Shown here in pieces: positions 28,772-62,731 of a stretch of DNA of 64,000 nt. A program made the translations under genes and the position numbers. The notes below the pieces were generated by a model. It ran no database searches. It saw only the letters and a program-made list of their open reading frames with translations, and was not told where the DNA came from. Where the stretch lies: assembly GCF_000230555.1 (NCBI RefSeq), contig NC_016078.1:1798001-1862000 (forward strand), written 5' to 3'. Each line of letters begins with the position of its first letter. Positions within the stretch are counted from its first letter, which is position 1. The DNA is from Pelagibacterium halotolerans B2. GTDB taxonomy: Bacteria > Pseudomonadota > Alphaproteobacteria > Rhizobiales > Devosiaceae.

Positions 28772-28787
28772 TTAACCGCTCGTTAAC
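28772..28787. promoter_or_regulatory. Exact CtrA box upstream of cckA
   Basis: TTAA-CCGCTCG-TTAAC matches the CtrA consensus TTAA-N7-TTAAC in every fixed position. It lies about 92 bases upstream of the cckA start, in the gap after flhB. A GAATC (CcrM-type GANTC) lies at 28720. CtrA control of its own activating kinase is the likely meaning. Confidence 0.85.
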
Positions 28788-28795
28788 AATCTCGG

Positions 28796-29881
28796 TTAAT
28801 TTCCACTGCGCCAGCTCGAGCGATTTTTCAACCGCATGACATAGCCGATGATCTGCGCCACCGCCTTGAAATGCTCCGCCGGGATCGTCTCGCCCACCTC
28901 GGCGCCGGCATAAAGCGCCCGGGCCAGCGGGGGATTTTCGACGATCGGGATGTCGTGATCCCTGGCCAGTCCGCGAATCCTGAGCGCAACCGCATCGACC
29001 CCCTTGGCCAGCACCTCGGGCGCGGCCATGTCCTTGTCGTATTTGAGCGCCACGGCAAAATGGGTCGGGTTGGTCACCACAACCGTCGCGTCGGGCACCG
29101 CCGCCATCATGCGCTTGCGGCTGCGCTCCATGCGAATCTGGCGGATACGGCCCTTGACGTGCGGATCGCCCTCCATCTGCTTGTACTCGTCGCGCACTTC
29201 CTTGACCGTCATCATCTGGCGCTGCCACCATTTGTGGCGCATGTAGATGTAATCGAGCAGCGCCACGATGGTGATGGCGATCAGGGTCGCGATGAAGATC
29301 TTGATGCCGATTTCCTGGAACAATTCCAAGGTCACGACGGGGTCGGCGGTCATGATGGTCGAAAGCCGGTCCCGGTCGGGCCAGACCACCAGCACCATGA
29401 TGGTGGAAAACACGACGAGCTTGAACAGCCCCTTGCCGAAATTGACCAGCGCCTCGCTCGAAAACAGCCGCTTGGCCCCGGCCAGCGGGGAGACTTTCGA
29501 GAATTTGGGTTTGAGGTTTTCAGCCGAAAACACCATGCGGTGCTGCACCATGTTTCCCGCGATCCCGCACAGCGCCAGAAGGATCATGGGAATCAAAAGC
29601 GCGCTCAAAAGGCTGATCGTCGCGCCATAGACGAACTGGTTGAACCCCGGCCCACCCACCTCGTAAAGGTCCGCGCGCCCGAGATAATCGCCAAGGCTGG
29701 TCATGATCTGCGCGCTGGTCATCGGCGCAACGAACGCAAAGATCAGCGCCGAGCCCAGGATCATGAACCAGGTCGTCACCTCCTGGCTCTTGACCACATC
29801 GCCCTTCTTGTGGGCATCCTCGAGCCGTTTTTGGGAGGGGTCCTCTGTCTTTTCGCTCTGTTCGGGTTTGTCGTCGCTCAT
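28796..29881 (-). CDS. flhB: Flagellar export gate protein FlhB
   Basis: This 361-residue protein has four membrane helices (residues about 35-210) after a charged N-terminus (KTEDPSQKRLEDAHKKGDV), and a cytoplasmic domain with the autocleavage site in VVTNPTHFAVALKYD near residue 270. FlhB switches export from rod/hook to filament substrates. It ends the minus-strand unit fliQ-fliR-flhB, starting three bases after the fliR stop. Confidence 0.97.
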   Translation of the reverse strand: MSDDKPEQSEKTEDPSQKRLEDAHKKGDVVKSQEVTTWFMILGSALIFAFVAPMTSAQIMTSLGDYLGRADLYEVGGPGFNQFVYGATISLLSALLIPMILLALCGIAGNMVQHRMVFSAENLKPKFSKVSPLAGAKRLFSSEALVNFGKGLFKLVVFSTIMVLVVWPDRDRLSTIMTADPVVTLELFQEIGIKIFIATLIAITIVALLDYIYMRHKWWQRQMMTVKEVRDEYKQMEGDPHVKGRIRQIRMERSRKRMMAAVPDATVVVTNPTHFAVALKYDKDMAAPEVLAKGVDAVALRIRGLARDHDIPIVENPPLARALYAGAEVGETIPAEHFKAVAQIIGYVMRLKNRSSWRSGN

Positions 29882-29884
29882 GGA

Positions 29885-30646
29885 CTAGCCCAGGAACTGC
29901 GAAAAATGGTCTTCGAGATAGGTCATATAAAGGGTCATCGTGAGGCTCAGCAGCAGCGCGAACAGGATCAGCCCGATGATGATGTTGGCCGGCATGGCCA
30001 TGAAAAACACCTGAATCTGGGGCATCAGCCGCCCCAGAATCCCCAGCCCCAGATAAAACACCAGTCCGAAAACCAGAAATGGCGCCGACATCTGCGTTCC
30101 GATCAGGAAGGCCTGCGCCACGATCTCCGTTGCCATCTCCGCCGCATCGCCCAGCATCAGCGGCGCATCGGGCGGGAAATAGCTGTAGCTGGCATAAATT
30201 CCCGCCAGCAGCACGTGATGCAGATCGGTGGCGAAAATCAGCGTCACGCCCAGCATGGCCAGAAAATTGCCAACGATCGCCCCCTGCACGCCCGGCTGGG
30301 TGGGATCGGAGGTCTGGGCCATCGAAAGCCCCATCTGGAACGCGATCACCGCACCTGCGACCTGCGCGGCGGTGATAATAAGCCTTGTCAGCCCCCCGAG
30401 GATAAATCCCACTGCAAGTTCATGCGCGAGTGCGGTCAAAAGCCCGCCCAGAGTCACCGGAACGGCGCCGAGATTGGGCAGGATCAGCGGGTAAAGCACC
30501 AGCGAAAACGCCAGCGCGAAGGTGAGCCGCAGCCGCATGGGAATCGTCGATTCCCCCAGCGCCGGCAACAGCATGAGGATCGTGCCGAGCCGTGCGAAAA
30601 TGAGAAAGAAATAATAGGCGACATCGGGGCCCCAGCTCACGCTCAT
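29885..30646 (-). CDS. fliR: Flagellar export gate protein FliR
   Basis: This 253-residue, six-helix membrane protein starts WGPDVAYYFFLIFARLGTIL and contains the conserved FALAFSLVLYPLI and HELAVGFILGG segments and a late MPQIQVFFMAMPANI motif. FliR forms the export gate with FliP and FliQ. It lies six bases after fliQ and three before flhB, in the usual order. Confidence 0.96.
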   Translation of the reverse strand: MSVSWGPDVAYYFFLIFARLGTILMLLPALGESTIPMRLRLTFALAFSLVLYPLILPNLGAVPVTLGGLLTALAHELAVGFILGGLTRLIITAAQVAGAVIAFQMGLSMAQTSDPTQPGVQGAIVGNFLAMLGVTLIFATDLHHVLLAGIYASYSYFPPDAPLMLGDAAEMATEIVAQAFLIGTQMSAPFLVFGLVFYLGLGILGRLMPQIQVFFMAMPANIIIGLILFALLLSLTMTLYMTYLEDHFSQFLG

Positions 30647-30652
30647 GGCCCG

Positions 30653-30919
30653 CTACCCGCCCGTGATGATCATGTCGACGATCTGGTTCATATAGGTGTT
30701 CATCGTGGCGCCCATGAAGGGCAGCGTGAGCAGCAGCGTGAAGAAGATCGCGATGATCTTGGGCACGAAAACCAGCGTCATTTCCTGGATTTGCGTCAAA
30801 GCCTGAAACAGGGCGATGATGACGCCGACCACAAGCCCCACGATCATCATCGGCCCTGAAACGATGATCAGGGTCCAGATGCCGGATGTGGCGATATCGA
30901 GAGTTTCTGCCCCGCTCAT
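30653..30919 (-). CDS. fliQ: Flagellar export gate protein FliQ
   Basis: This 88-residue, two-helix protein carries the FliQ pattern: ...LIIVSGPMMIVGLVVGVIIALFQALTQIQEMTLVFVPKI, then a second helix ending MNTYMNQIVDMI. It is the third small component of the FliPQR gate. A near-perfect CtrA site lies 20-34 bases upstream of its start, and a long hairpin separates it from fliE, so fliQRflhB probably has its own promoter. Confidence 0.96.
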   Translation of the reverse strand: MSGAETLDIATSGIWTLIIVSGPMMIVGLVVGVIIALFQALTQIQEMTLVFVPKIIAIFFTLLLTLPFMGATMNTYMNQIVDMIITGG

Positions 30920-30938
30920 GTCAATCCCGCGCGATTCG

Positions 30939-30953
30939 TTAACGCCACCTTAC
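30939..30953. promoter_or_regulatory. CtrA-like box upstream of fliQ
   Basis: TTAA-CGCCACC-TTAC (read in reverse, GTAA-N7-TTAAC) matches the CtrA site with one mismatch. It lies 20 bases upstream of the fliQ ATG. The Caulobacter fliQR promoter is a classic CtrA target, which supports the reading. Confidence 0.6.
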
Positions 30954-31100: not shown

Positions 31101-31424
31101 CTAAATGGGCATGCGCATGATTTCTTCGTAGGCCGAGATCACCCGATCGCGGACCGTGACCATGGTTTCCATTGCAGATTCGGTTTCGGCCAGCGCGGTC
31201 ACCACATCGACAACGTTTGCCTTGCCGTTGATCATGTCGACGGCCACCTGGTCCGAGCGCTGCCCGGTTTCGACGATGCCGCCGAGCTGGTCGGCCAGCA
31301 TCTGCCCGAAATCGGCGCCCGATGGCGAAGCTGTGGGCGCGGTCAGCTTGCCGCCCGCCTGATCGGAAATCAGGCGCGAGACATTGCCGTAGGCAGCGGT
31401 AGCTGCATTGAATGGCGTGCTCAT
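31101..31424 (-). CDS. fliE: Flagellar basal-body protein FliE
   Basis: This 107-residue protein has the FliE core in its C-terminal half: FGQMLADQLGGIVETGQRSD, then ADMINGKANVVDVVTALAE-like helix (VAVDMINGKANVVDVVTALAETE) and a final VRDRVISAYEEIMRMPI. FliE links the MS ring and export gate to the proximal rod. It follows flgC by 12 bases. Confidence 0.95.
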   Translation of the reverse strand: MSTPFNAATAAYGNVSRLISDQAGGKLTAPTASPSGADFGQMLADQLGGIVETGQRSDQVAVDMINGKANVVDVVTALAETESAMETMVTVRDRVISAYEEIMRMPI

Positions 31425-31436
31425 CTATCGAACTCC

Positions 31437-31850
31437 TTAACCGCGCAGAATATCGAGCGTCCGCCCAAGCATCTGGCGCGATACGGTGACGACGTTGAGA
31501 TTGGCCTCATAGGTGCGCTGGGCCTCGCGCATGTCCATGGTCTCGATCAGCGTGTTGACATTGGGGTATTTGACATAGCCGTTCTCGTCGGCCGCCGGAT
31601 GGCCCGGTTCATAGCGCGAGGAAAAATCGCTCATGTCCGTTGCGAGCGCACCAACCGTCACTTCGGTGGCGCCCAGTTCGCGATTGAGCACGGCGTGAAA
31701 GGTCGGCACCTTGCGCCGATAGGGATCCTCGTCCGGTGTATGCCCGGCGGAATCGGCATTGGCCATATTCTCGGCGATCACCCGCATGCGCGCCGTCTGG
31801 GCGTTGAGCCCCGATCCGGCGATCTTGATCGATGTCATGAAATCGTTCAT
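31437..31850 (-). CDS. flgC: Flagellar proximal rod protein FlgC
   Basis: This 137-residue protein carries the rod signature near its start (SGLNAQTARMRVIAENMANA with the ANANTPG-like DSAGHTPDEDPYRRK following) and the C-terminal MREAQRTYEANLNVVTVSRQML helix. It forms part of the proximal rod with FlgB and FlgF. It lies 11 bases after flgB and 12 before fliE. Confidence 0.96.
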   Translation of the reverse strand: MNDFMTSIKIAGSGLNAQTARMRVIAENMANADSAGHTPDEDPYRRKVPTFHAVLNRELGATEVTVGALATDMSDFSSRYEPGHPAADENGYVKYPNVNTLIETMDMREAQRTYEANLNVVTVSRQMLGRTLDILRG

Positions 31851-31861: not shown

Positions 31862-32266
31862 CTATACGTTCTTGCCCAGCGCGATCTTCATCAATCGCAT
31901 GGAGCGTGTGTAGAGCGTGGTCGCGGCCTGATAGTCCATCTGGTTGGTCGTGACCTTCATCATCTCTTCTTCCAGCGTCACCCCGTTGCCCTCGGGCATG
32001 ACCTCGAAACTGTTCATGGTCCGCGCGCCCATGGCCCGGCTCGGGTCGCCCCCCACCGAATAATGGTTGCGGTTGGTCGCGGTCGTCGTGACAGTGGCAC
32101 CCGAACGGCGCGCCGTGCTCTCGATGGAAAAGGGCGCAAGGTCGCGCCCGCGATAGCCGGGTGTTTCGGCATTGGCGACGTTTTCGGCCAGAAGCGTCTG
32201 GCGGGTCTGGTGCCATTGCATCCTGTTCTTGAGCGCGGCAAAGATGGGCAGGTCACCAATGGCCAT
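31862..32266 (-). CDS. flgB: Flagellar proximal rod protein FlgB
   Basis: This 134-residue protein has the FlgB opening (IFAALKNRMQWHQTRQTLLA), the ENVANAETPGYRGRDL rod motif near residues 29-44, and a C-terminal TTNQMDYQAATTLYTRSM. It is the first gene of flgB-flgC-fliE. The 206-bp divergent region before fliO contains an exact CtrA box. Confidence 0.96.
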   Translation of the reverse strand: MAIGDLPIFAALKNRMQWHQTRQTLLAENVANAETPGYRGRDLAPFSIESTARRSGATVTTTATNRNHYSVGGDPSRAMGARTMNSFEVMPEGNGVTLEEEMMKVTTNQMDYQAATTLYTRSMRLMKIALGKNV

Positions 32267-32326
32267 TTCGGGTCCGCCGAATCCGGTTACAGTTCGTTAA
32301 CTGGGCAAACTTTGCCCACTGCATGG

Positions 32327-32342
32327 TTAACGACGCGTTAAC
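32327..32342. promoter_or_regulatory. Exact CtrA box between flgB and fliO
   Basis: TTAA-CGACGCG-TTAAC matches the consensus exactly. It lies 61 bases upstream of flgB (-) and 131 bases upstream of fliO (+), so it could control both early flagellar units. An additional TTAAC half-site lies at 32297, and a GGGCAAA/TTTGCCC inverted repeat at 32304-32317. Confidence 0.85.
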
Positions 32343-32472
32343 CGATCGGAAACCAAGGGCCGGAAATCTCCCAATTTTGAACAAAGCTAAGCTATAGTAG
32401 GCAGCTATTGCCCAGCGCCAAGCGTCCGGCTATGTGTCGCGGGACGAGTTGCCCATTTCCAGGAGCGTGCCA

Positions 32473-33054
32473 GTGGGATTTCTGAACAGCCTTTTCGGTG
32501 GTGAAAACGGCTATCTGACAATGATCGTGGCGCTGGCCATCGTGATCGTTTTGATCGTCCTCGCCGTCTGGCTCATCAAGCTGGTGGGCGACGCCTCTGC
32601 CAGCGTGGGGCGCGGCCGCAACCGGCGCCTGATGGTCATCGATTCCATCGCCATCGACAACAAACGCCAGGCCGTCATCATACGCCGCGACGAGACCGAG
32701 CACCTGATCGTCATTGGCGGCCCCAACGATCTTGTCGTTGAAGGCGGCTTTGAAGCCCCGCCCGTCCAGCAGGTCCAGCGCGCCCGCCGCAAACCCGCCG
32801 AACCCGCGCCCGCCGTTGCACCCGAGCCCGCGCCCCCGGCCCGGCCGATGGGCAAGTCGCTGCGCCATACCGGCCTGCTGCGCCCCGTCGAGGACAACGA
32901 ACCCAAACTCGATGGGGGAAAGCCCGACAATAAGGGCCGCACCTCCTCCGACTCAGCTACAAGCGTTGCCATGTCGGCCACCACGACCGTGGAGCCCGAA
33001 CCGCCGCTTGAAGCGAGGGACAGAGATTACGAGGACACGGCAACCAGGTCCTGA
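32473..33054 (+). CDS. fliO: FliO-like flagellar biosynthesis protein
   Basis: This 193-residue protein has one transmembrane helix (YLTMIVALAIVIVLIVLAVW, residues about 12-31), then a FliO-like RRLMVIDSIAIDNKRQAVIIRR strand pair, and a long Pro/Ala-rich cytoplasmic tail. FliO helps FliP assemble the export gate. GTG at 32473 is chosen because AGGAG lies at 32461-32465, 7 bases upstream. Its 3' end overlaps the probable fliP start. Confidence 0.83.
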   Translation: MGFLNSLFGGENGYLTMIVALAIVIVLIVLAVWLIKLVGDASASVGRGRNRRLMVIDSIAIDNKRQAVIIRRDETEHLIVIGGPNDLVVEGGFEAPPVQQVQRARRKPAEPAPAVAPEPAPPARPMGKSLRHTGLLRPVEDNEPKLDGGKPDNKGRTSSDSATSVAMSATTTVEPEPPLEARDRDYEDTATRS

Positions 33055-33814
33055 TACCGCACCGCGCCGGGCCGGAACGCCCCGCGCGGCACTTGCCGTC
33101 GTTCTTGGCCTCGCCGCCATCCTCCTGCTGCCCGCCACGGGAATCGCGCAGGACATCTCCATCGATTTCGGCGACGAAACCACGCTGACCGAGCGCGCGA
33201 TCCAGTTGATCGCCCTCATCACAATTCTCGCGCTCGCCCCCTCCATCCTCGTGATGGTGACGAGCTTTACCCGCATCGTCGTGGTGCTCTCGCTGTTGCG
33301 CACCGCCATCGGGCTGCAGACCGCACCGCCCAATTCGGTGATGATCTCGCTGGCGCTGTTTCTCACCGCCTTCATCATGGCACCCACCCTGCAGCAAAGC
33401 TACGAGGTGGGCATCGAGCCCCTGGTGGCCGGCGAGGTCGAAATCGTCGAAGCCATCGACCTTGCCTCCGGCCCGCTGCACGAATTCATGCGCACCCATG
33501 TCCGCCCTCAGGACGTCATGCTGTTCATGGACCTGACCGAAACCCCGGCTCCGGAAAACCCCGAAGACCTCGAACTGCGCATCCTCATCCCCGCCTTCAT
33601 GATCTCCGAACTCCGCCGCGCCTTCGAAATCGGGTTTCTTCTCTTTTTGCCCTTCGTGGTCATCGACATGGTCGTGGCCTCGGTGCTGATGAGCATGGGC
33701 ATGATGATGCTCCCCCCGGTCATCATCTCCCTGCCCTTCAAGCTGATCTTTTTCGTCCTCGTCGACGGCTGGCACCTTGTGGCAGGGTCGCTGATACGGA
33801 GCTTCACCGGCTAA
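33008..33814 (+). CDS. fliP: Flagellar export gate protein FliP
   Basis: The mature region is unmistakable FliP: ERAIQLIALITILALAPSIL, FTRIVVVLSLLRTAIGLQT, RTHVRPQDVMLFM and LRILIPAFMISELRRAFEIG, ending FVLVDGWHLVAGSLIRSF. No ATG or GTG lies within about 60 codons upstream of the signal peptide; TTG at 33008 (reading MKRGTEITRTRQP, then a hydrophobic signal ending GIAQD) gives 268 residues and is the best start. It overlaps fliO by 47 bases. Its stop overlaps the convergent vapC stop. Confidence 0.9.
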   Translation: MKRGTEITRTRQPGPDTAPRRAGTPRAALAVVLGLAAILLLPATGIAQDISIDFGDETTLTERAIQLIALITILALAPSILVMVTSFTRIVVVLSLLRTAIGLQTAPPNSVMISLALFLTAFIMAPTLQQSYEVGIEPLVAGEVEIVEAIDLASGPLHEFMRTHVRPQDVMLFMDLTETPAPENPEDLELRILIPAFMISELRRAFEIGFLLFLPFVVIDMVVASVLMSMGMMMLPPVIISLPFKLIFFVLVDGWHLVAGSLIRSFTG

Positions 33815-38615: not shown

Positions 38616-39022
38616 GCGGCGTGCTCCCGGCGCTTCTGGTGGTCTTTCAGCGTCTTGAGCGCGCTGCCGGCCCGGCTGCCGTCGCCGCCATCGCCCGGCG
38701 AACGCGCCGCCTGGGTGATCTTGGCGATCCGGTCCATGACCGCCTGCCCCGCATTGACATGATTGGCCAGTTCGATCGCGAACCGCTCGGCCTCGTTAAG
38801 GCGCGTATTGAGCTTTTCGTCAGCCTCCACCGCCGTTTCGCGCAGCCCCTTGATGGCGCTGTTGGCCATCGAGGTCGCTTGCACCAGATCGGCGATCATC
38901 TGCTGAAGCGCTGCGCGATCGGACTGCAGCGTCCGGATTCGCTTGTTGAGCACAATGCAGTAACCGATTGTCGTTGCGAGAAGAACGGCAACGGCAATTT
39001 CAATCATCAGTCCTAAAGGCAT
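38612..39022 (-). CDS. DUF6468-type flagellar-cluster membrane protein
   Basis: This 136-residue protein has one N-terminal helix (LMIEIAVAVLLATTIGYCIV), then a coiled-coil region (NKRIRTLQSDRAALQQMIAD onwards) and a basic tail. It matches the DUF6468 type found between fliM and motE in alphaproteobacteria; the name is from memory. It is coupled to fliM by a one-base overlap (TAATG) and to motE by ATGA. A cytoplasmic coiled coil anchored near the switch is plausible, but the function is unknown. Confidence 0.75.
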   Translation of the reverse strand: MPLGLMIEIAVAVLLATTIGYCIVLNKRIRTLQSDRAALQQMIADLVQATSMANSAIKGLRETAVEADEKLNTRLNEAERFAIELANHVNAGQAVMDRIAKITQAARSPGDGGDGSRAGSALKTLKDHQKRREHAA

Positions 39023-40125: not shown

Positions 40126-40623
40126 CTATTGAACCAGAATGTCCTTGAACAGGATGTTGTCCACGCTCGCCGGATAGACGGCGAGGTTGACGCGGCGCAG
40201 CAATTCTTCCTTGAGCCGGTAGATACCGGCCGACCCTTCGATGTCGGACCGGCGAAGCTCGCGCAGATAGACCTGAAACGCATCGAGAACCCGCGGCAGG
40301 CGCGGCTCGATCACCTCGATCATCGTCTCGTCGCGCACTTCCAGCGCAATCCGCATCCGCAGGAACTCGGCCGCGCCACCCGGATTGCTCAGATTGACCG
40401 TGATATCGGGGAGGTCATAGAACGCCGTTTCCGCCGCAACCTCGATTTCGCCGTCATGGCCGGCATCGCCGCCCCCCGATTGCGTGAGAAACCAGCCGCC
40501 GGCCCCCGCGACCAGCAACAGAACGGCAACGCCCCCGCCGATCAGCGCCATCTTCGGCAGCCCTTTTTTTGCGGGCGCCGCCTCCGATGTGGCGTTAATT
40601 TCCGTTTCGGTCACATCAGTCAT
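40126..40623 (-). CDS. fliL: Flagellar basal-body-associated protein FliL
   Basis: This 165-residue protein has a cytoplasmic N-terminus, one transmembrane helix (MALIGGGVAVLLLVAGAGGW), and the periplasmic FliL domain with YDLPDITVNLSNPGGAAEFL, ending LREELLRRVNLAVYPASVDN-type sequence and IDNILFKDILVQ. FliL supports the stator. It is the first gene of the minus-strand fliL-fliM-DUF6468-motE-TPR run, divergent from flgF. Confidence 0.94.
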   Translation of the reverse strand: MTDVTETEINATSEAAPAKKGLPKMALIGGGVAVLLLVAGAGGWFLTQSGGGDAGHDGEIEVAAETAFYDLPDITVNLSNPGGAAEFLRMRIALEVRDETMIEVIEPRLPRVLDAFQVYLRELRRSDIEGSAGIYRLKEELLRRVNLAVYPASVDNILFKDILVQ

Positions 40624-40688
40624 TCAAGGCCTTCCGAATCCCCCGGTTTCAGGCGCTTTTGCCTTGTGCCCAGCTAATCCCGACAGGG

Positions 40689-52888: not shown

Positions 52889-52963
52889 CGCAAAAGGTAA
52901 ATTTACCCCTTGATGATCAGACTTTGTTAACCATTCGGTAGCACTTGTCCAAGCACTGTATGG

Positions 52964-52979
52964 TTAACGCGCTCCTAAC
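52964..52979. promoter_or_regulatory. CtrA-like box upstream of flagellin 1
   Basis: TTAA-CGCGCTC-CTAAC matches TTAA-N7-TTAAC with one mismatch and lies 46 bases upstream of the flagellin 1 start. A GCAC...GCAC stretch at 52941-52956 looks like a sigma-54 promoter but has the wrong spacing. Confidence 0.55.
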
Positions 52980-53024: not shown

Positions 53025-54545
53025 ATGTCTGATGTGACGCTATCGAAGGCTGTACGTTCCAACCTTCTGCACCTTCAAAACACAGCCAAGATGATGGACT
53101 CCACCCAGGAGCGTTTGGCAACGGGCAAGAAGGTCAATTCGGCCCTCGACAATCCCACCAATTTCTTCACCGCCGCCTCGCTGAGCGGCAGGGCCGCCGA
53201 TATCGGCACGCTGCTCGACGCCATGAGCAATGGCATCCGCACCATCGAGGCTGCCGACAATGGCCTGACCTCCATCACCAAGGCGATTGAATCGATGCAG
53301 TCCACGCTGCGCCAGGCGCGGCAGGACAATTCCTTCAAGACCGAGAGCTATACGCTCAACATGGCCGACACCCCGGCCGGTACCGAAGTGCTCAACTTCG
53401 CCGGCGGCGCCCTGCCCGACGGCACCGACTATGATGTCGATCTTACAGCCTCCCGGTCCGAACTGGCCGCCGGCGCGTTTACACCGGCCGGGGTCGATCT
53501 TTCCGATCCGGGCGACACGATCGGTTTCGATATCGCCGTGCATGGTGGTGATCCGGTGTCCATTTCCATCACCAATGCCGACATCACCTCCCCCGGAGCG
53601 GTTGCCGATCCGACAGCGGTAACGGCCGATGAAATCGCAGCCATTATCAACGCCAAGCTCGACAATGCCGGTGTTGCCGCCACAGCCACCGTCAACGGTG
53701 GAGACCTGGTGCTGACCACCGACGATTTTGCCGGCAGCAGTTCCTCGGCCATCGAGATTTCCAACTACGCTGAAACCACGACCGCTGGCACGACGGGCAT
53801 AGCCGATGGCACGGGCACGGCAATCGGCACCCGCGCCCGCACCGTCGATGACATGGTGACCGCCATCAACGCCAATGCCGACCTCGACGGTTTCGTCCGG
53901 GCCTCCAACGACAATGGCAAGCTGCGCATCGAAAACCGTTCGACGACCGATATGACCCTGACCGGTCTCACCAATGGAGAGATCACCGGCGGTATCGGGC
54001 AGTCCGATATCGAGGGCAATGACGTCCGTGCCAGCCTGGCGCGCCAGTTCAACGAATTGCGCACCGAACTCGACCGTCTGTCCGAAGATGCTTCATTCAA
54101 CGGCGTCAACCTGCTGCGCGGCGACCAGCTCAAGATCGTCTTCAACGAATCCGGCACCTCGACGATCGAGATCCAGGCCAAAAATTCCAAGGGTGAAGCG
54201 CGCGCCATCAACGTTGCCAATCTCGGCCTGCTCGAACTCAACGCCGAGGATCTCGACCTCAACACAGATATCGATGGTCTGCTTTCCAACCTCCAGAACG
54301 CTCTTAACGAGGTGCGCGCGCAAGCCTCCGATCTCGGCTCGACCCTGTCGGTGGTTCAGAACCGCGAGGATTTCACCAAGCGCATGATCAATACGCTGGA
54401 AACCGGCGCGGCCAATCTTACGCTCGCCGATACCAATGAGGAAAGCGCCAACCTGCTGGCGCTGCAGACCCGCCAGCAGCTCTCCCAGACCGCGCTCAGC
54501 CTGGCCAGCCAGGCCGATCAGGCCGTTCTGCGGCTCTTCGGCTAA
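53025..54545 (+). CDS. Flagellin 1
   Basis: This 506-residue protein has the flagellin N-terminal coil (SDVTLSKAVRSNLLHLQNTA, then LATGKKVNSALDNPTNFFTA) and C-terminal coil (NLLALQTRQQLSQTALSLAS, ending ADQAVLRLFG). The central 300 residues are rich in Gly, Asp, Thr and Ala and form the variable, surface domains. At this length it is larger than typical rhizobial flagellins. The ATG at 53025 follows a GGGGG tract by 7 bases. It has its own terminator and differs in codon use from flagellin 2. Confidence 0.96.
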   Translation: MSDVTLSKAVRSNLLHLQNTAKMMDSTQERLATGKKVNSALDNPTNFFTAASLSGRAADIGTLLDAMSNGIRTIEAADNGLTSITKAIESMQSTLRQARQDNSFKTESYTLNMADTPAGTEVLNFAGGALPDGTDYDVDLTASRSELAAGAFTPAGVDLSDPGDTIGFDIAVHGGDPVSISITNADITSPGAVADPTAVTADEIAAIINAKLDNAGVAATATVNGGDLVLTTDDFAGSSSSAIEISNYAETTTAGTTGIADGTGTAIGTRARTVDDMVTAINANADLDGFVRASNDNGKLRIENRSTTDMTLTGLTNGEITGGIGQSDIEGNDVRASLARQFNELRTELDRLSEDASFNGVNLLRGDQLKIVFNESGTSTIEIQAKNSKGEARAINVANLGLLELNAEDLDLNTDIDGLLSNLQNALNEVRAQASDLGSTLSVVQNREDFTKRMINTLETGAANLTLADTNEESANLLALQTRQQLSQTALSLASQADQAVLRLFG

Positions 54546-54722: not shown

Positions 54723-56216
54723 ATGTCTGATGTAACGCTCTCGAGCGCGGTTCGTTCGAACCTTCTTTCCCTCCAGAACACCGCTGACATGATGTCGGCA
54801 ACCCAGACCAAGCTTGCCACCGGCAAGAAGGTCAATTCGGCTCTGGACAACCCGACAAACTTCTTCACCGCTTCCTCGCTCAACAGCCGCGCTGGCGACA
54901 TGAACGCCCTTCTGGACGGCATGGCCAACGGCATTCAGACCCTGGAAGCCGCCGATAACGGCCTGTCCGCGATCACCAAGACCCTCGAATCCATGCAGTC
55001 GACGCTGCGTCAGGCCCGTCAGGACAAGTCTTTCCAGACCGCCTCCTACGATCTTGCCGAAGGTCTTACCGATGCAGAAACCCTCTCGTTCTCGGGCGGC
55101 GCTGTCGGTGATACGGCTGTCGATATCGAGCTGGGCACCGCGGCGGTCGCCGCAACGCCGGCAACCCTGACCGCCGCTGGCGGCACCGACCTGACCACTG
55201 GTACTGGTACGGACCTTCAGGCCCTCGACGGCGAATCCATCACCGTCACGGGTGAAGATGGCAGCACCGCGACCTTCACGTTCAACGCCACCGATGACAA
55301 CGCCACCCAGATCGCCGACATGAACACGGCTTTCGCTGCGGCGGGTGTTGTGGCAACGGCCAGCGCCGATGGTCTCGATCTGGCCAACGCTGACGGCGTC
55401 GACTTCACCGTCACCACGTCCGATGGCGCAGTCGATACGGCCGTCGGCCTGACAAGCGGTACGACCTCGACCGACGGTGTTGAAGCGGTCGCCGCCGCCT
55501 CCAAGACGGTCGATGAACTGGTCAGCGAGATCAACAACTCGTCTGAACTCGATGGCAAGATCCGGGCTTCCAACGACAACGGCAAGCTCCGCGTCGAAAA
55601 CCTTTCGACCCAGGACCTCACTGTCGATGGCGCCTCTGCCAGCGGCACGATCGACGGCACCTCTTCGGGCGCCAACACGATCGAAGGCAACTCGGTGCGC
55701 GCCGGCCTTGCCGATCAGTTCCGCGAACTGCGCGATCAGCTCGACAAGCTGGCCGACGATGCCTCGTTCAACGGTGTGAACCTGCTCCGCGGCGATAACC
55801 TGCAGATCACGTTCAACGAAACCGGCACGTCCGAGCTCAACATCCAGACCAAGATCGATGGTGAAGAGGGTGCGTCGGTCAACTCGACCACACTGGGTAT
55901 CGAAACCAACCTGCAGGCCGAAGATCTCGACTCCGACACCAACATCGACAGCCTGCTGGGCGATGTGAAGTCCGCGATCAACACGGTCCGCTCGCAGTCG
56001 TCCGCTTTCGGTTCCTCGCTCTCGATCGTTGAGAACCGTCAGAACTTCTCCAACAACATGATCAACACCCTGGAGACCGGTGCGTCCAACCTCACCCTGG
56101 CCGATGCCAATGAGGAAGCCGCCAACCTTCTGGCCCTGCAGACCCGCCAGCAGCTCTCTTCGACCGCTCTGTCGATGGCTTCGCAGGCCGATCAGTCGGT
56201 CCTCCGTCTGTTCTAA
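54723..56216 (+). CDS. Flagellin 2 (probable major flagellin)
   Basis: This 497-residue paralogue of flagellin 1 has nearly the same N-terminus (SDVTLSSAVRSNLLSLQNTA, LATGKKVNSALDNPTNFFTA) and C-terminus (NLLALQTRQQLSSTALSMAS, ending SVLRLF), with a divergent central domain. It uses CGT, AAC and other favoured codons more than its neighbour, as expected of a very highly expressed gene. It has a separate leader and terminator. flbT and flaF follow. Confidence 0.96.
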   Translation: MSDVTLSSAVRSNLLSLQNTADMMSATQTKLATGKKVNSALDNPTNFFTASSLNSRAGDMNALLDGMANGIQTLEAADNGLSAITKTLESMQSTLRQARQDKSFQTASYDLAEGLTDAETLSFSGGAVGDTAVDIELGTAAVAATPATLTAAGGTDLTTGTGTDLQALDGESITVTGEDGSTATFTFNATDDNATQIADMNTAFAAAGVVATASADGLDLANADGVDFTVTTSDGAVDTAVGLTSGTTSTDGVEAVAAASKTVDELVSEINNSSELDGKIRASNDNGKLRVENLSTQDLTVDGASASGTIDGTSSGANTIEGNSVRAGLADQFRELRDQLDKLADDASFNGVNLLRGDNLQITFNETGTSELNIQTKIDGEEGASVNSTTLGIETNLQAEDLDSDTNIDSLLGDVKSAINTVRSQSSAFGSSLSIVENRQNFSNNMINTLETGASNLTLADANEEAANLLALQTRQQLSSTALSMASQADQSVLRLF

Positions 56217-56287: not shown

Positions 56288-56335
56288 TGCAAGCGCAGCC
56301 GCCATAGTTCGGAAAACGTGAAGGGGATACGAATC

Positions 56336-56779
56336 ATGGCGCTCAAGGTCGAGCTGAAGCCCGGTGAAAAACTGATCGTGGGCAGTTGCGTGATCACCAA
56401 TTCCGACCAGCGCACCCGTCTGTTCATCGAGGGCAAGGCGCCCATCCTGCGCGAAAAGGACATCCTGTCGGCAGCCACCGCCGACACGCCCGCCAAGGCC
56501 ATCTATCTCGCCATCCAGATCATGTATGTGGAGGGCAATGTCGACAAGCTCACCAGGAGCTATTTCGAGCTCATCAACGAAATGGTCCGCGCTGCGCCGT
56601 CCACTTTGCCTTATGTCGACGCTATAAATAATGAGATATTAACCGGCGATCTCTACAAGGCTCTCAGGGCCGCTAAAAAGCTTATCGAATACGAAGGGGA
56701 GTTGCTGGGGCATGCAACATCAGGGGGCGCTCGCATACCAGAGGACCGCGCAACAGACAGCGAGTCCCAGAGATCTTGA
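56336..56779 (+). CDS. flbT: Flagellin mRNA regulator FlbT
   Basis: This 147-residue protein has the full FlbT pattern: MALKVELKPGEKLIVGSCVI at the start, RLFIEGKAPILREKDIL near residue 31, and AIYLAIQIMYVEGN near residue 60. FlbT binds flagellin transcripts and limits translation until the hook is complete. AAGGGGAT precedes the ATG at 56336 by 8 bases. Its 3' part overlaps flaF by 68 bases in another frame. Confidence 0.95.
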   Translation: MALKVELKPGEKLIVGSCVITNSDQRTRLFIEGKAPILREKDILSAATADTPAKAIYLAIQIMYVEGNVDKLTRSYFELINEMVRAAPSTLPYVDAINNEILTGDLYKALRAAKKLIEYEGELLGHATSGGARIPEDRATDSESQRS

Positions 56780-57080
56780 GGCCAATCTTCTGGCCCGCCT
56801 TGCCTCCCGTCTGCAGAACATCCGCGACACCTGGCCCGAGCACTATGACCAGCTCGAAGAAACCCTCAACAAGAACCGCAAGGTGTGGTCGATCTTCGTC
56901 CAGGCTGTGACCCGCGACGACAGCCCCCTGCCCCAACCCATCCGCCAGAACATCGCCAATCTGGGCATCTTCGTCATGGGCCAGACCTATGAGCTGCTCG
57001 CCGGCGCCGACCCCGCCAAGCTCGACGCGCTCATCAACATCAACCGTCAGATTTCAGCGGGCCTGCGCGGAAACGGCTGA
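56712..57080 (+). CDS. flaF: Flagellar biosynthesis regulator FlaF
   Basis: This 122-residue helical protein starts MQHQGALAYQRTAQQTASPR and contains RKVWSIFVQAVTRDDSPLPQ and QNIANLGIFVMGQTYELLAG, the FlaF core. FlaF promotes flagellin secretion and acts opposite FlbT. The ATG at 56712 lies inside flbT, giving a 68-base overlap and probable translational coupling. A terminator follows its stop. Confidence 0.93.
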   Translation: MQHQGALAYQRTAQQTASPRDLEANLLARLASRLQNIRDTWPEHYDQLEETLNKNRKVWSIFVQAVTRDDSPLPQPIRQNIANLGIFVMGQTYELLAGADPAKLDALININRQISAGLRGNG

Positions 57081-57546: not shown

Positions 57547-59013
57547 CTAAAGATAATTCACCAGCGTCAATTGGCTGGCCATCGCCGTGGCCTGATAGCT
57601 GGCCTCAAGCTGTGTCTGGAGCGTGAGCAGCATCATGGCCACCTCCTCCTTTGGCGCTTCGGAGATTTCGGCAAGCATGGTCTCAAGCTGTGAGCCATAC
57701 TGCGAATGGCGCTCCTTGACGGTGTTGACCGTCGAGGCGGCGATGCCCAGTTCCATCGTGATCACTTCGATCGAGCCGGGCTGGGAATTGTTGTCTTCTG
57801 AAAGCCGTGAGCGCTGAATGTCGACAAGTGCGTCGTAACGGGCGGCATTGTCCTCGTCGAGCGGTGAAAGCTCGGACACCGAGAACACCGCCAATCCCTT
57901 GATCAGTTCGACGAACCCCGATTCATTGGCCTGAACGCCGTACTGGGTCTTTGTGTTCTCGTCGATATTGGCCGAGACGGTCTGGCGGGGATTGGTGCTG
58001 TCCTGGCCATTGTACCATACATTGGCATCGGGATCCTGGGCCTCGCCCATGCCGTTGAAGAACCCGTCGGCAGCCGCATAGGTCGAAGATGAGCGCAGAT
58101 CGGTCCTGGTCAGCGCTGCGAGCTTGTCGGAAATCGCCGTATTGAGATTGGCCGCCGTTTCCTCGGCGTCGGCCCCGATGGCAAAGCCATCCGCCGGAAC
58201 CGGATCGGTATCGGTGGCCGTGAAGGTGAAATACTGAACCGTATCGCGGTCATGGGGCAAGGTGAGCCCGATGGTTATGGTATCCCCGTCGGCCGGCACA
58301 GCGTCCATTGTGGCCGATAGGACCTGCTCGGCGTCGGGCGCCAGAATATCCACCGGCCCCGCCGAAGCGGTCATTGCCGTGCCGGTCGTGGTCACCGAAG
58401 CGATCTTGAATCCGTATTCGTGATCGCCATCCTCGGTCAGGGTGATCGTGTCGGTGGCAAGAACCTGGTCGATCCGGCCTGAATTGCCCGCGATCGTCCC
58501 CATGTCCTCGTCATTGCGGTTCTGGGTGTAGCGCACGAACCCGTTCGGCCCGTTCATGATCTCATCGAAGCTCGAAACCGGCTTGGTGTCGGACTTGTTG
58601 CCCCCGAAAATGAACTGCCCGGTAATATCTGTATTGAGGACGTCTATGACTTCCTTGAGCAGGTTGGTCGCCTGGTTGCGCGCGCTTGTGAGATTTATAC
58701 CGTCGGTGCCATAGGCGTTGGGCACCGCCAGGGCCCGCGCGGACTCCTCGATCTCGTCGAGCCGCTCCAACCCATTGGTGTAAAAGCTCATCCGGTTCTC
58801 GACTGTCAGGATGTTGGACTGATAGCCCTCGATCCGCGACAGGCGGTTGCGCAAATTGATGTCGTGCACCCGTTCGCTGCCCATCTCGGCGAGCGTGTTG
58901 TACTTGTTGCCGCTCGCCAGTTGCAGTTGGAGGCTCTCGAGCTTCTTGTGCATCGAGGTGATGGTCGAGAGCGTCGATGACACCGGATAAAGCGATTTGT
59001 TGATGATCGTCAT
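57547..59013 (-). CDS. flgL: Flagellar hook-filament junction protein FlgL
   Basis: This 488-residue protein has flagellin-like ends: SSTLSTITSMHKKLESLQLQ at the N-terminus and AMMLLTLQTQLEASYQATAM at the C-terminus. The ITGQFIFGGNKSDTKPV segment near residue 135 is a FlgL landmark. At 488 residues it is much longer than enteric FlgL (317), with a large central insertion of about residues 180-330. It is the third junction gene after flgE and flgK. Confidence 0.93.
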   Translation of the reverse strand: MTIINKSLYPVSSTLSTITSMHKKLESLQLQLASGNKYNTLAEMGSERVHDINLRNRLSRIEGYQSNILTVENRMSFYTNGLERLDEIEESARALAVPNAYGTDGINLTSARNQATNLLKEVIDVLNTDITGQFIFGGNKSDTKPVSSFDEIMNGPNGFVRYTQNRNDEDMGTIAGNSGRIDQVLATDTITLTEDGDHEYGFKIASVTTTGTAMTASAGPVDILAPDAEQVLSATMDAVPADGDTITIGLTLPHDRDTVQYFTFTATDTDPVPADGFAIGADAEETAANLNTAISDKLAALTRTDLRSSSTYAAADGFFNGMGEAQDPDANVWYNGQDSTNPRQTVSANIDENTKTQYGVQANESGFVELIKGLAVFSVSELSPLDEDNAARYDALVDIQRSRLSEDNNSQPGSIEVITMELGIAASTVNTVKERHSQYGSQLETMLAEISEAPKEEVAMMLLTLQTQLEASYQATAMASQLTLVNYL

Positions 59014-59019: not shown

Positions 59020-60849
59020 TCACATAGCCAGCAGGGCATCGATCAGTTCCTGGACCGTCGAAACCACGCGCGCGCTTGCCGAATAGGCGTTCTGGAGTTG
59101 CATCAGCCCCGCCATCTCCTCGTCCACGTTCACGCCGTATTCGGCATCCATGCGCGTCGTGATCGAAGACAGCGTATAGCTGACGGCCGAGCTTTCCGAC
59201 TGGGCCTTGGAAACCACATTGCCCTGATGATTGATCATCTGGCCGATGAGGTCGGTGACCTTGCCCGAGAGCCGCACGCCACCATCGGAAAGCGCGGTCA
59301 TCTTGTCGGAAACGAATTCCATCGATTTGAGATTGTCGAGCAGGAATTCGGGCCGCGTCGCATCGCCCAGCGACACCCCGCTCGCAAACTGCACCATAAG
59401 CGCCGGATCGGAGATCAGCGCCGTGTTGATCGATATCCGCCCGGCAAATCCGCGCTTCTGGCCATTGCCGTCGAGCGAATTGGTAAAGGCCGCGTCGCGG
59501 CTGTCGACGAACAGGTTGAGCGCGCCGACCCCGTCCTGCGTCCCGGTCACGCTGATACTTGAGGACATGGCGCGCATGTCCGCGCTGTCTATGGAGAGAA
59601 CGCCGCCCGCGTCGGTGATGACCGCGCCCCCCGGCAATTCGCCGGCCAGTGCTGCCGCAATCGCCGCTGCGGGATCGCCGCCCGAAATATCGACGCCGAT
59701 CACCCGCTCACCGCTGGCATTGGGCGAGGCGAGCGGCAGATTGGCGGCGTCGCCCATGGCAACGACCCGTATCGTACGGTCGGTCGTTCCGTCATTGTAG
59801 CTGATGGCAACCGAATTGCCCGGCTGCATGCCGGAAAGATCGAGCTCGTAAAGGTCCGGCGTCAGTTCGTCGGGTTCCGCCACGCTATTGACGGTATTCA
59901 TCGCCTGGGCGAGCCCTGCGGCGATCTCGTCGAGCTGGTCCTGCATGTTGACGAGGGTCGTGTCGCGCAGCTCCAGCAGCCCCGCAAGGCGCCCCGAGGA
60001 CAGCAATTCCTGCCCGGCCAGGTCGACCTGCAACCCTGAAGGGGTGCGCAGGGTCAATTCGCCGACCCCGTTCTTGGCCGGATCGGGATCGAACAGCGAG
60101 GTCGAATTGAGCCCGCCCCCCGAGCGGAAGCCGAACTGGGAGGCTTCGACATCGAGAATGCCGACCCCGCTTTCCGTCATCAGCGCGACGGTGCCGTCGG
60201 TGCGATAGGTGGCGCGCACGTCGACAAGTTCGGAAATCGACGCCACCAGCCGGTCGCGTTCGTCCATGAGCGAAAGCCGCGCCTGCTGGTCCTGCGAAAT
60301 GTCGAGGATGCGCACATTGACATCGGCCAGCGCGTTGAGCTGCCGGTTGAGCTCGGAGACCCCGTTGGAAATCTGCTGCTCGGCCTCCACGCGCATTTCC
60401 TGCACGGCGCCGGTCAGGGTGTTGAGCTGTTCGACGAGCTGCTGGGCCGAATTGAGCACGCCGGCCCGTGTCGTCACGTCATTGGGGTTGGTGACCAGCG
60501 CCTGCATCGCGTTCTCGAACCCCGCATAGAGCGTATCGAGGGAGTTGGCATCGCCCGGCTTGCCAAGATGCATCTGCAGCCGGTCGAGGAAGCTGGTGCG
60601 AACATCGTGATAGCTGGCCGAGGAGACAGCCGCCAGATGCTGCTTTTCCAGTGCTTCGTTGAAAGCCCGGCTGAGCGTCGAGGCGCGAACCTGCGCGCTC
60701 GTGCCATAGGCCGTCTCTTCGATGACGATGGACTGCCGGTGATAGCCCGGCATCCCCTGATTGGCGATGTTGCGCGAAACGACATCGATGCCACGCTGAC
60801 TGGCATTCATGCCCCCCAGTGCATTCGATAGCGTCGAACTCAATCCCAT
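59020..60849 (-). CDS. flgK: Flagellar hook-filament junction protein FlgK (HAP1)
   Basis: This 609-residue protein starts with the rod/hook signature GMNASQRGIDVVSRNIANQG-MPGYHRQ and ends VDEEMAGLMQLQNAYSASARVVSTVQELIDAL. The domain order and length fit FlgK of alphaproteobacteria. It joins hook to filament with FlgL. It ends six bases before flgL and follows flgE across the palindromic repeat. Confidence 0.95.
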   Translation of the reverse strand: MGLSSTLSNALGGMNASQRGIDVVSRNIANQGMPGYHRQSIVIEETAYGTSAQVRASTLSRAFNEALEKQHLAAVSSASYHDVRTSFLDRLQMHLGKPGDANSLDTLYAGFENAMQALVTNPNDVTTRAGVLNSAQQLVEQLNTLTGAVQEMRVEAEQQISNGVSELNRQLNALADVNVRILDISQDQQARLSLMDERDRLVASISELVDVRATYRTDGTVALMTESGVGILDVEASQFGFRSGGGLNSTSLFDPDPAKNGVGELTLRTPSGLQVDLAGQELLSSGRLAGLLELRDTTLVNMQDQLDEIAAGLAQAMNTVNSVAEPDELTPDLYELDLSGMQPGNSVAISYNDGTTDRTIRVVAMGDAANLPLASPNASGERVIGVDISGGDPAAAIAAALAGELPGGAVITDAGGVLSIDSADMRAMSSSISVTGTQDGVGALNLFVDSRDAAFTNSLDGNGQKRGFAGRISINTALISDPALMVQFASGVSLGDATRPEFLLDNLKSMEFVSDKMTALSDGGVRLSGKVTDLIGQMINHQGNVVSKAQSESSAVSYTLSSITTRMDAEYGVNVDEEMAGLMQLQNAYSASARVVSTVQELIDALLAM

Positions 60850-60887
60850 CGCTTAAACTCCATAACAGTCTTGCCGCAGCGTTGCCG

Positions 60888-61003
60888 GGCTGGTCAGGGT
60901 GGAGCGAGAAAGGTGGCTTTCGGGAACCGGAGCGGAGCGTACTTTAAGGTACGTGAGCACCGGAAGCGCAGAAAGCCGCCTTTCGCAGCCCGCCCTCACC
61001 GGC
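60888..61003. repeat. Long palindromic repeat (family 2), copy 2
   Basis: An imperfect palindrome of about 116 bp starts GGCTGGTCAGGGTGGAGCG and ends CGCAGCCCGCCCTCACCGGC. Its centre, GAACCGGAGCGGAGCGTACT..GTACGTGAGCACCGGAAGCGCAG, is almost identical to copy 1 at 30984-31100. It lies between the flgE stop and flgK start. Confidence 0.85.
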
Positions 61004-61006
61004 CCA

Positions 61007-62626
61007 CTATCTAATCATGTTGAGGGCTTCTTGGAGCATTTCATCGGACGTCGAGACGATGCGTGTGCCCGCCGAATAGGCCTGCTGGGTGACGATCAGC
61101 TTGGTGAACTCCTCGGAAATGTCTGTGTTCGAGGATTCAAGGGCGCCGCCGGTGATACCGCCATCGGTTGAAAGGATCGCCTCGCCCGACGCCGCCGTTG
61201 CCGAATAGATGCCGCCGTCGAGCCGCTTCATCTGGTTCTCGGCGTTGAAATTGGCCGTCACGAGCTGGAAGATCTCGATCTGCTCGCCATTGGAATAGGT
61301 GGCGACCACCCGGCCATTGTCGTTGATGGCAACCGACATGAACGAGCCGGCCGGATATCCGTTCTGGTTGAGCGTCGAGACCGCGGCCCGGCCATTGGCA
61401 TTGTCGAACTGGGTCAGCCCGCCGGCGCCGAGATCGAGTTCGACATCACCCACCACCGTGCCGTTGATGGTGAGATTGGGCAATTCGAGCCGCAACGGCT
61501 CGCTGAGCGAGACCGACGATCCGCCCTGGGTTTGCAGGACACCGTCCTCGAAGGTAAATTCGCCATCGGGGACCTCTGCCCAGGTCTGCGGTTCACTGTT
61601 GCTCATGTAGTAGAGCCGCCAGGTATCGGGCTCGTTGGACACCTTGCCCCAGCGCATCTGTACGTTCACCGAGGCGCCATTGGGCGCATAGACGGTGATG
61701 GCGCCGCCTTCGACCGAGCGCGCCACGAAGTCGTTATTGGTCTCGGGCGCGTCTGGAGCGGGCTGCGAGACGATGCCGGCGATGGTGCCGGTGCCGCCGA
61801 TGGCGATGTCGTGATTTGTGTCGTCGGCCACGATCTGCAGCCGTCCTTCGGAATCCAGGGACGCAGAGGCGCCCGCAACCGAGGAATTGACCCAATCGAC
61901 AAGATCCTGAAGCGTCGTTCCGTCAACGCCCTCCTCGAAGGTCTCGACGGCCCCACCACCGACCGAGATGGTGAACTGGTCGCTTGCCGCCCAGCCAAAG
62001 CCCGGCGCCGCGCCCTGCAGCGTCTCGGTGCCGTCAAGGTCGCCATCGTCCGAGAGCGTCGTGGCGAAATCGGCAGCCAGGCCGACGGCCGGCGTATCGG
62101 GCAGGTTGACCTCGTAGTCGATGCGCTGGGTTGCCTTGGCCGGGATCAACCCGTTGGAAACCTGCACCATCTGGGGCACCGAGCCGGCGACATTGCCCGT
62201 GGTGGCATCGATGGGCACGCCCTTGAGATAATAGCCGGCGCCGTTGCGCAGATAACCCTCGCGGTCCATCTCGAAGTCGCCGCGCCGCGTGTAATAATTC
62301 GCGTCGCCGAACACCGAGGTCCCGTCGGTCGTGCCGGTCTTTTCAGCGACAACGAAAAAGCCCGAGCCGTTCAGCGCAACATGGGTGCCGGTCGAGGAGG
62401 TGATGATGTCGCCACGCACATCGTTGGTCGAGCGCGAATAGGCGAGCACCGCCCCAGGCTTCTGCCGACCCACCGCCGCATCGGGGATCAGGTCGATGAA
62501 GCCGGTTTCCATGCGCTTGTAGCCGGTGGTCTGCGAATTGGCGATGTTGCCCGAGATATTCTCGAGCGCGAACGACTGCGCCGCCATGCCGGTCACGGCC
62601 GTCGACAATGCCCCATAGATACCCAT
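61007..62626 (-). CDS. flgE: Flagellar hook protein FlgE
   Basis: This 539-residue protein starts MGIYGALSTAVTGMAAQSFA with LENISGNIANSQTTGYKRME and ends AYSAGTRIVSTSDEMLQEAL, the hook pattern. GGAGAG precedes the ATG at 62626; a longer frame from 62707 would start at or before the transcription start expected from the sigma-54 promoter at 62715-62731. It heads flgE-flgK-flgL. Confidence 0.96.
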   Translation of the reverse strand: MGIYGALSTAVTGMAAQSFALENISGNIANSQTTGYKRMETGFIDLIPDAAVGRQKPGAVLAYSRSTNDVRGDIITSSTGTHVALNGSGFFVVAEKTGTTDGTSVFGDANYYTRRGDFEMDREGYLRNGAGYYLKGVPIDATTGNVAGSVPQMVQVSNGLIPAKATQRIDYEVNLPDTPAVGLAADFATTLSDDGDLDGTETLQGAAPGFGWAASDQFTISVGGGAVETFEEGVDGTTLQDLVDWVNSSVAGASASLDSEGRLQIVADDTNHDIAIGGTGTIAGIVSQPAPDAPETNNDFVARSVEGGAITVYAPNGASVNVQMRWGKVSNEPDTWRLYYMSNSEPQTWAEVPDGEFTFEDGVLQTQGGSSVSLSEPLRLELPNLTINGTVVGDVELDLGAGGLTQFDNANGRAAVSTLNQNGYPAGSFMSVAINDNGRVVATYSNGEQIEIFQLVTANFNAENQMKRLDGGIYSATAASGEAILSTDGGITGGALESSNTDISEEFTKLIVTQQAYSAGTRIVSTSDEMLQEALNMIR

Positions 62627-62714
62627 TTTACTCTCCGTCGTACCAGCGACCCCAATAGCGATCGCGACAGCCCCAAACATCTGCACGCCAAGCACGCGCA
62701 TTCGCAAAGAGATG

Positions 62715-62731
62715 ATGCAAGGGGAGTGCCA
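62715..62731 (-). promoter_or_regulatory. Sigma-54 promoter of flgE
   Basis: Read on the minus strand, TGGCACTCCCCTTGCAT matches TGGCAC-N5-TTGCA perfectly, with exact -24/-12 spacing. It lies about 89 bases upstream of the flgE start codon. Confidence 0.92.

Follow-up and report, generated by a model that had tools for sequence, protein, structure and literature searches.

The flagellum of Pelagibacterium halotolerans B2 is most probably built by a vertically kept regulatory cascade that leads from CtrA through FliX and FlbD to sigma-54, a reading to which a probability of about 0.88 is given. The evidence was drawn from a flagellar gene cluster in a window, that is, the whole 64,000-nucleotide stretch analysed (NC_016078.1, positions 1,798,001 to 1,862,000), from the remainder of the genome, and from related genomes. 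Pelagibacterium belongs to the family Devosiaceae in the order Hyphomicrobiales, and the genome consists of a chromosome of 3.94 megabases and one small contig. A sequence-only reading of the same window had proposed the tiers of CtrA and sigma-54 control, which stand; it had missed a further recurrent element, the dyad GGCA-N5-TGCC, as well as the misfit of the flagellin genes to the Caulobacter pattern.

Read from the genes, sites, spacing and conservation that were observed, the binding, activation, repression and order in time would be as follows. CtrA, phosphorylated via CckA and ChpT, would turn on the early operons fliF, flgBC-fliE, fliO-fliP, fliQR-flhB, fliLM and fliX, and FliX would restrain FlbD until early assembly is complete. 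FlbD would then bind the GGCA-N5-TGCC dyads and, from about 100–130 base pairs (bp) upstream of the -24/-12 sites recognized by sigma-54, would act as the enhancer-bound activator of flgF-flgG-flgA-flgH, flgI, flgE and fliK-flgD, while dyads on the gene side of the CtrA dyad, 22–24 bp from it at fliX, flgB and fliF in Pelagibacterium, would shut the early promoters off. The scheme looks kept rather than regained, and looks ordinary for the order.

CtrA boxes and sigma-54 sites

Exact matches to the CtrA box TTAA-N7-TTAAC, which the earlier reading had placed before cckA, between flgB and fliO and before fliX, were recovered at 28772..28787 on the forward strand, overlapped by a one-mismatch match on the reverse strand at 28771, and at 32326..32342 (flgB-fliO gap) and 50090..50106 (fliX-flgI gap), the latter two being exact on both strands (32326/32327 and 50090/50091). 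CtrA-type sites with one mismatch precede fliQ-fliR-flhB (30938..30953, reverse strand) and fliL-fliM (40688..40703, reverse strand). With at most one mismatch, 14 matches were found in the window against 1.33 expected, a number that none of 100 shuffles reached. Palindromic sites were counted once per strand, so that these matches represent nine places, two of which, 37824 and 56628 (in flbT), have no obvious promoter; the first 28.6 kilobases (kb) of the window contain no CtrA-type match at this threshold.

Conservation was assessed in the gap between fliX and flgI at 70 loci including that of the window, of which 69 were counted after one (L116) without a fliX match by tblastn was dropped. 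Since the 70 include the 30 FliX loci with the best scores, 16 of which come from one family, the counts are also given by family. A CtrA box with at most one mismatch is present in 63 of the 69 gaps (4.2% in shuffles, and 9 of 69 with the pattern reversed) and in at least one gap of 23 of the 24 families. The region upstream of fliL has a one-mismatch CtrA-type site in 8 of 8 cases from relatives. For fliF, 70 of 81 loci were counted, 80 of the 81 being the closest FlbD relatives, mostly from Devosiaceae and Stappiaceae; a CtrA-type site was found upstream at 69 of the 70 (4.8% in a control by simple letter shuffle). Predicted CtrA boxes stand at the early operons fliF, flgB, fliX and fliL.

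The -24/-12 sites claimed before flgF, flgI and flgE are present as TGGCACGCCACCTGCA (40822..40837, forward strand), TGGCACACTTTTCGCT (50203..50218, forward strand) and TGGCACTCCCCTTGCA (62716..62731, reverse strand), respectively. Because the raw count of this pattern in the window does not exceed chance, conservation was used as the test instead, and it is from conservation that these sites draw their support. With at most one mismatch, a -24/-12 site was found in other Devosiaceae before flgE in 8 of 10 genomes and before flgI in 9 of 10 (eight of 18 flgE rows, weaker matches in fliX-side stretches, were left out of the count as presumed other rod proteins). The fliX-flgI gaps contain such a site on the flgI strand in 54 of 69 cases and on the opposite strand in none, and each of the 24 families has at least one. 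No promoter pattern was found in the upstream regions of flgK and flgH in relatives. Putative sigma-54 promoters precede the rod, ring and hook operons, at flgF in half of the relatives only, and the pairing suggested earlier, of early genes with CtrA and of distal rod, ring and hook genes with sigma-54, is supported at the level of predicted sites, within a scheme that includes FlbD and FliX.

A dyad of probable FlbD type

When spaced dyads were counted without bias across the fliX-flgI gaps, GGCA-N5-TGCC ranked first (58 of 69 gaps; 0.6% by dinucleotide shuffle), with TTAA-N7-TTAA, the CtrA box, behind it (35 of 69); at least one GGCA-N5-TGCC dyad occurs in 19 of the 24 families. As counted by hand, its centre lies 18–22 bp from that of the CtrA dyad in 58 of 61 measurable cases; of the 63 cases with a -24/-12 site, 52 place it 96–130 bp upstream of the -12. 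In the window, the dyad GGCAAACTTTGCC (32304..32316) is positioned on the flgB side, 24 bp by hand count from the CtrA dyad centre, and GGCAGCTATTGCC (32400..32412) lies upstream of fliO. The CtrA dyad of the fliX-flgI gap is flanked by GGCAGATTTTGCC (50070..50082), 22 bp away on the fliX side, and by GGCAAACACTGCC (50112..50124), at a distance of 20 bp. Hand-counted distances from dyad to -12 are 110 bp at flgF (GGCAAGTATTGCC, 40719..40731), 98 bp at flgI (GGCAAACACTGCC), 107 bp at flgE, where the dyad GGCAAATTTTTCC (62819..62831) is degenerate by one mismatch, and 116 bp at fliK. Seven of 10 other Devosiaceae genomes have an exact dyad at 106–107 bp from the -12 of flgE, and the region upstream of flgF has a dyad in all eight relatives. 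Upstream of fliF, the dyad was detected at 50 of 70 loci (shuffles, 0.4%), and in 40 of these 50, by hand count, it is offset from the CtrA dyad by 38–40 bp away from fliF, by 24 bp towards fliF, or in both ways. Dyads between the CtrA dyad and the gene would sit over the core promoter; they were seen on the fliX side of 10 gaps (nine from Devosiaceae), at flgB in the window and, by hand count, at 18 of the 70 fliF loci.

The dyad is probably the FlbD (ftr) box, because in Caulobacter, according to the relevant portion of PMC3930126, FlbD acts through ftr4 as a repressor of fliF and through other ftr sites as an activator of middle genes. It is unlikely that the cascade runs as described with a protein other than FlbD on the dyad. 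In favour of that alternative are the absence of any ftr consensus in a literature search of open-licence papers, the small surplus of the longer form CGGCA-N5-TGCCG, found at 35 places in the genome against 25 for the reversed pattern, and the pairing of dyad and FlbD being read from sequence. It fits less well with the near-constant distance of the dyad upstream of the -24/-12 sites at flgF, flgI, flgE and fliK, with its presence at fliF, the target repressed by Caulobacter FlbD via ftr4 in the portion cited above, and with its lower density in the clusters of genomes that have Rem/FtcR as their only regulator of the two sets: ten stretches from six such genomes, 167.7 kb in all, yielded 7 matches of the CtrA type and 5 dyads, compared with 14 and 9, respectively, from 34.4 kb of the window.

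Several observations weigh against the cascade through CtrA, FlbD and sigma-54 as proposed here. The window-wide count of -24/-12 sites with at most two mismatches, 8 against 11.78 expected, is not above chance, and before flgF a recognizable site was found in only four of the eight relatives in which flgF was located. A CtrA box with at most one mismatch is missing from 6 of the 69 fliX-flgI gaps, including both of one family (f10), and an exact dyad from 11 of them. The gene-side dyad is narrow in its spread, most Devosia fliF genes having a dyad only on the far side at 38–40 bp. The longer dyad is only mildly in excess, and, with no ftr consensus found in print, its equation with the Caulobacter ftr site is a presumption drawn from position. 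The genome scan for TTAA-N7-TTAAC proposed by the sequence-only reading gave an excess of exact boxes over the reversed pattern (25 versus 14), which was also only mild; the argument is carried by position and conservation.

Of the 35 genome places of CGGCA-N5-TGCCG, five lie in or next to the flagellar clusters, and flgI itself contains one of the five. The fliX-flgI gap of one Devosiaceae genome (G093, locus L090) contains neither a CtrA box nor a dyad.

Regulator genes in the genome and across the order

The genes needed for the proposed cascade were found by profile search of the genome, as the earlier reading had expected of rpoN and flbD. Outside the window lie rpoN (C1:3405431), flbD (C1:2394546; NF050807, 817.8 bits against a cut-off of 750) and ctrA (within C1:2404171-2407401; NF045991, over cut-off). 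The flbD and ctrA genes are about 10 kb apart on the chromosome, with chpT, likewise over cut-off, in between; flbD is positioned downstream of fliK, flgD and fliF and directly before flhA. Over its N-terminal part, FlbD shows 97–98% identity to two Pelagibacterium records. Within the window, cckA, encoding the cell-cycle histidine kinase, occupies 26134..28710 on the reverse strand (NCBIfam NF046020, 1253.7 bits against a cut-off of 1000), so that the genes of the CtrA-CckA-ChpT phosphorelay are all present. The partner of FlbD, FliX, is encoded at 49614..50030 on the reverse strand (PF10768, 136.3 bits against 25), and orthologues of both regulators are present in the genome. Two CtrA-type sites with one mismatch lie upstream of ctrA itself (L077:18488 and L077:18673), as for an autoregulated gene, and the exact box at 28772 before cckA suggests that CtrA may feed back on the gene of its own kinase.

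A cascade of the VisNR-Rem or FtcR type, as in Rhizobiaceae, with the boxes left as relics or arising by chance, is very improbable as the system in charge. The VisNR-Rem cascade of Sinorhizobium and Rhizobium and the control of the FtcR/LafR type share with the present case that they govern flagella in Hyphomicrobiales (an aspect treated in the part of PMC8429497 consulted), and in Agrobacterium motility is influenced by a pathway that feeds CtrA, as stated in a passage of PMC7003649; for this reason CtrA boxes alone are not decisive. The Pelagibacterium genome, unlike those systems, yielded no Rem/FtcR at E<=1e-25, accepted members elsewhere scoring 6e-60 or better, and no VisN at E<=1e-12, VisR not having been searched for; none of the 10 OmpR-type regulators found in it is Rem/FtcR-like by eye. 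Conservation of the sites across 24 families also speaks against this reading.

The distribution of the regulators was determined in 397 genomes sampled from a larger set of the order. The label Rem/FtcR is one that we take to apply to the reference genes used, which sit just upstream of flgE; no NCBIfam model over cut-off gives that name to the reference gene that was scanned. FliX was identified in 228 genomes, FlbD in 227, FlbT in 287 and Rem/FtcR in 121, the last figure being 126 less five weak matches (E about 1e-26) that were set aside as background, one of them in a Devosiaceae genome (G202). FliX and FlbD occur together in 222 of the 233 genomes that have either. Of the 287 genomes with flbT, FlbD stands alone in 162 and Rem/FtcR in 72, while 44 contain both and nine neither. 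At least two flbT genes were found in 43 of the 44 genomes with both regulators, in 15 of the 162 with FlbD only and in one of the 72 with Rem/FtcR only; the two regulator sets thus coexist almost only where flbT is present at least twice, which makes the loss and gain of regulators testable per flagellar system. All 21 sampled Devosiaceae genomes have FlbD and FliX, and none has an accepted Rem/FtcR. Strong VisN matches, obtained with a reference gene confirmed by NF047402, are confined to one family, with eight genomes better than 1e-90 and nine more at 1e-23 to 1e-28, and matches elsewhere are weaker.

These figures do not agree with the rarity of the scheme in Hyphomicrobiales that the sequence-only reading had implied, FlbD being present in 206 of the 287 sampled flbT genomes. 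Control by FlbD and FliX in Bradyrhizobium diazoefficiens has reportedly been described by Dardis and co-workers (2021); as far as the title of that paper allows comparison, it concerns the same order and the same two regulators. Since FlbD-FliX is already in print for the order, the occurrence of these regulators there is not new. The portion of PMC3096577 consulted notes that dozens of alphaproteobacteria with polar flagella have both FliX and FlbD, and aligns FliX from Bradyrhizobium and Rhodopseudomonas. According to the part of PMC8429497 that deals with it, the Rem homologue LafR of B. diazoefficiens has control over the lateral flagellum and none over the polar one. Pelagibacterium differs from B. 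diazoefficiens in showing no Rem-type second system and, in a table of PMC6406911, no lateral flagellum: that source, in the sections concerned, distinguishes a subpolar and a lateral type among Rhizobiales flagella and marks Pelagibacterium and Devosia plus/minus, taken here as subpolar only, with the order of the columns being our interpretation. A word search of the main text of the same paper returned no mention of FlbD, FliX or CtrA, and a literature search of open-licence papers returned no match to an order-wide tally by flagellar system or to the spacing rule. The usual view of flagella in the rhizobial order is built on VisNR-Rem and FtcR; to judge from the sample, the majority scheme is FlbD-FliX.

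The earlier reading had left open whether the lineage kept or regained the scheme. Loss followed by regain through horizontal transfer from a Caulobacter-like donor can be given hardly any credence: nothing was found in its favour, FlbD and FliX are found throughout the sampled Devosiaceae and in most families with flbT, and the tree of the subpolar flagellum, in the section of PMC6406911 that names Pelagibacterium and Devosia, follows the Rhizobiales tree with no horizontal transfer supported. Of the two options offered, retention is the one that these data favour.

Flagellin genes and further genes of the window

The cascade resembles that of Caulobacter crescentus (CtrA-FliX/FlbD-RpoN) in CtrA control predicted for early genes, in the FlbD/FliX pair, in FlbT and FlaF, in RpoN-type promoters at the hook and rod/ring genes and in the presumed FlbD-type site at fliF (ftr4 in Caulobacter; relevant part of PMC3930126). 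The flagellin genes depart from this likeness. In Caulobacter, as the same part of PMC3930126 describes, the genes of the hook protein and the flagellins belong to the middle and late classes and have ftr sites to which FlbD binds, whereas flagellin genes of Pelagibacterium have CtrA-type sites and no -24/-12. Before flagellin 1 (53025..54545, forward strand), a one-mismatch CtrA-type site lies at 52963..52979 without a -24/-12 there, and the only such site upstream of flagellin 2 (54723..56216, forward strand) has two mismatches. At none of 27 flagellin genes from 13 Devosiaceae genomes was a -24/-12 site with at most one mismatch found within 150 bp of the start (shuffles, 1.5%), and 18 of the 27 show a CtrA-type site at the same tolerance (shuffles, 3.7%). 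In six other families, represented by one genome each, no -24/-12 site was found at any of 14 flagellin genes of the cluster, and a CtrA-type site within 180 bp was found at 8 (shuffles, 4.2%). Of 23 rows for these families, four (L298-L301) were dropped because they are second pieces of listed genes. The count of 14 omits five of the remaining 19 rows (L279, L280, L292, L295 and L297), which lie apart from the flagellin cluster or look like another type of protein, and even at up to two mismatches none of the 19 rows has a -24/-12 site.

By sequence, the absence of sigma-54 signs at the flagellin genes limits membership in the Caulobacter scheme to the early and middle tiers. The possibility that these genes are under sigma-54 and FlbD after all, from promoters too degenerate for the scan or far upstream, is unlikely, if less so than a different protein on the dyad. 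In its favour, each of five Pelagibacterium genomes inspected has at least one exact dyad at 525–540 bp ahead of its first flagellin gene, both dyads of a tandem being exact in three; 9 of the 27 Devosiaceae flagellin genes have no CtrA-type site with at most one mismatch; and the -24/-12 pattern was applied without Caulobacter flagellins as a positive control. It must be set against the lack of any -24/-12 site at the 27 Devosiaceae genes, given that the same pattern detects 8 of 10 flgE sites, and at the 14 genes of the other families. CtrA-type sites combined with the absence of -24/-12 sites would be consistent with a filament supply that is perhaps gated after transcription by FlbT and FlaF, and the departure raises the question of how this supply is timed without sigma-54.

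A more general proposal can be advanced tentatively, with somewhat less than even confidence. The Hyphomicrobiales branch may have taken its flagellins off sigma-54 and FlbD and placed them directly on CtrA, so that FlbT/FlaF would be the assembly gate that is left; the dyads of CtrA and FlbD may form a cassette of fixed geometry (mostly 18–24 bp) that couples middle-gene activation to early-gene control; and each flagellar system in the order may carry either the FlbD-FliX or the Rem/FtcR set of regulators. Its near-constant spacing makes the CtrA/FlbD cassette easy to approach by footprinting and reporter assays.

In the window, a tandem FlbD-type dyad (52485-52511), some 500 bp ahead of flagellin 1, is followed by an open frame of 116 amino acids (52538-52888), which is 37–42% identical over its full length to counterparts in all four other Pelagibacterium genomes and has no Pfam match at E<=0.001; it is perhaps a small protein of the flagellar cluster. 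The Devosiaceae genome G093 contains seven flagellin genes in a row (L278), six of which have a CtrA-type site with at most one mismatch 74–119 bp upstream.

The remaining genes were assigned by protein family searches, and fliX (PF10768), flbT (NF009432) and flaF (NF009435) are present as had been stated. On the reverse strand, flhB (28796..29881; TIGR00328), fliR (29885..30646; TIGR01400), fliQ (30653..30919; TIGR01402 and NF004671), fliE (31101..31424; TIGR00205), flgC (31437..31850; TIGR01395) and flgB (31862..32266; NF004654 and TIGR01396) all score over cut-off. On the forward strand they are followed by a weak fliO (32434..33054; TIGR03500, E=1.3e-8, 34.8 bits, below the cut-off of 55.25, with no Pfam match at E<=0.001) and by a frame at 32714..33814 that contains fliP (TIGR01103 over cut-off at residues 168-364), whose true start lies further in. 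The reverse-strand genes fliM (39022..40116; TIGR01397 over cut-off) and fliL (40126..40623; NF009420, E=3.1e-52, 176.6 bits, below the cut-off of 197) precede, on the forward strand, flgF (40904..41647) and flgG (41660..42445), both with rod-protein Pfam domains and named by position and order, flgA (42450..43424; TIGR03170 over cut-off) and flgH (43536..44276; NF001305 over cut-off). The forward-strand flgI (50293..51417; PF02119, 457 bits) has a start assigned by reading, as does flagellin 1; both flagellins match flagellin families below cut-offs. Downstream lie flbT (56318..56779) and flaF (56712..57080), both on the forward strand and over cut-off, and then, on the reverse strand, a gene for a FlgL-type hook-associated protein (57547..59013; flagellin/FlgL families, below cut-off), flgK (59020..60849; TIGR02492 over cut-off) and flgE (61007..62626), whose start was assigned by reading and whose best FlgE family match has E=9.9e-85, FlgE equivalogs being below cut-off and the subfamily TIGR03506 over it. 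A VapC-like toxin gene (33811-34182; E=3.6e-7, below cut-off) lies between flagellar operons.

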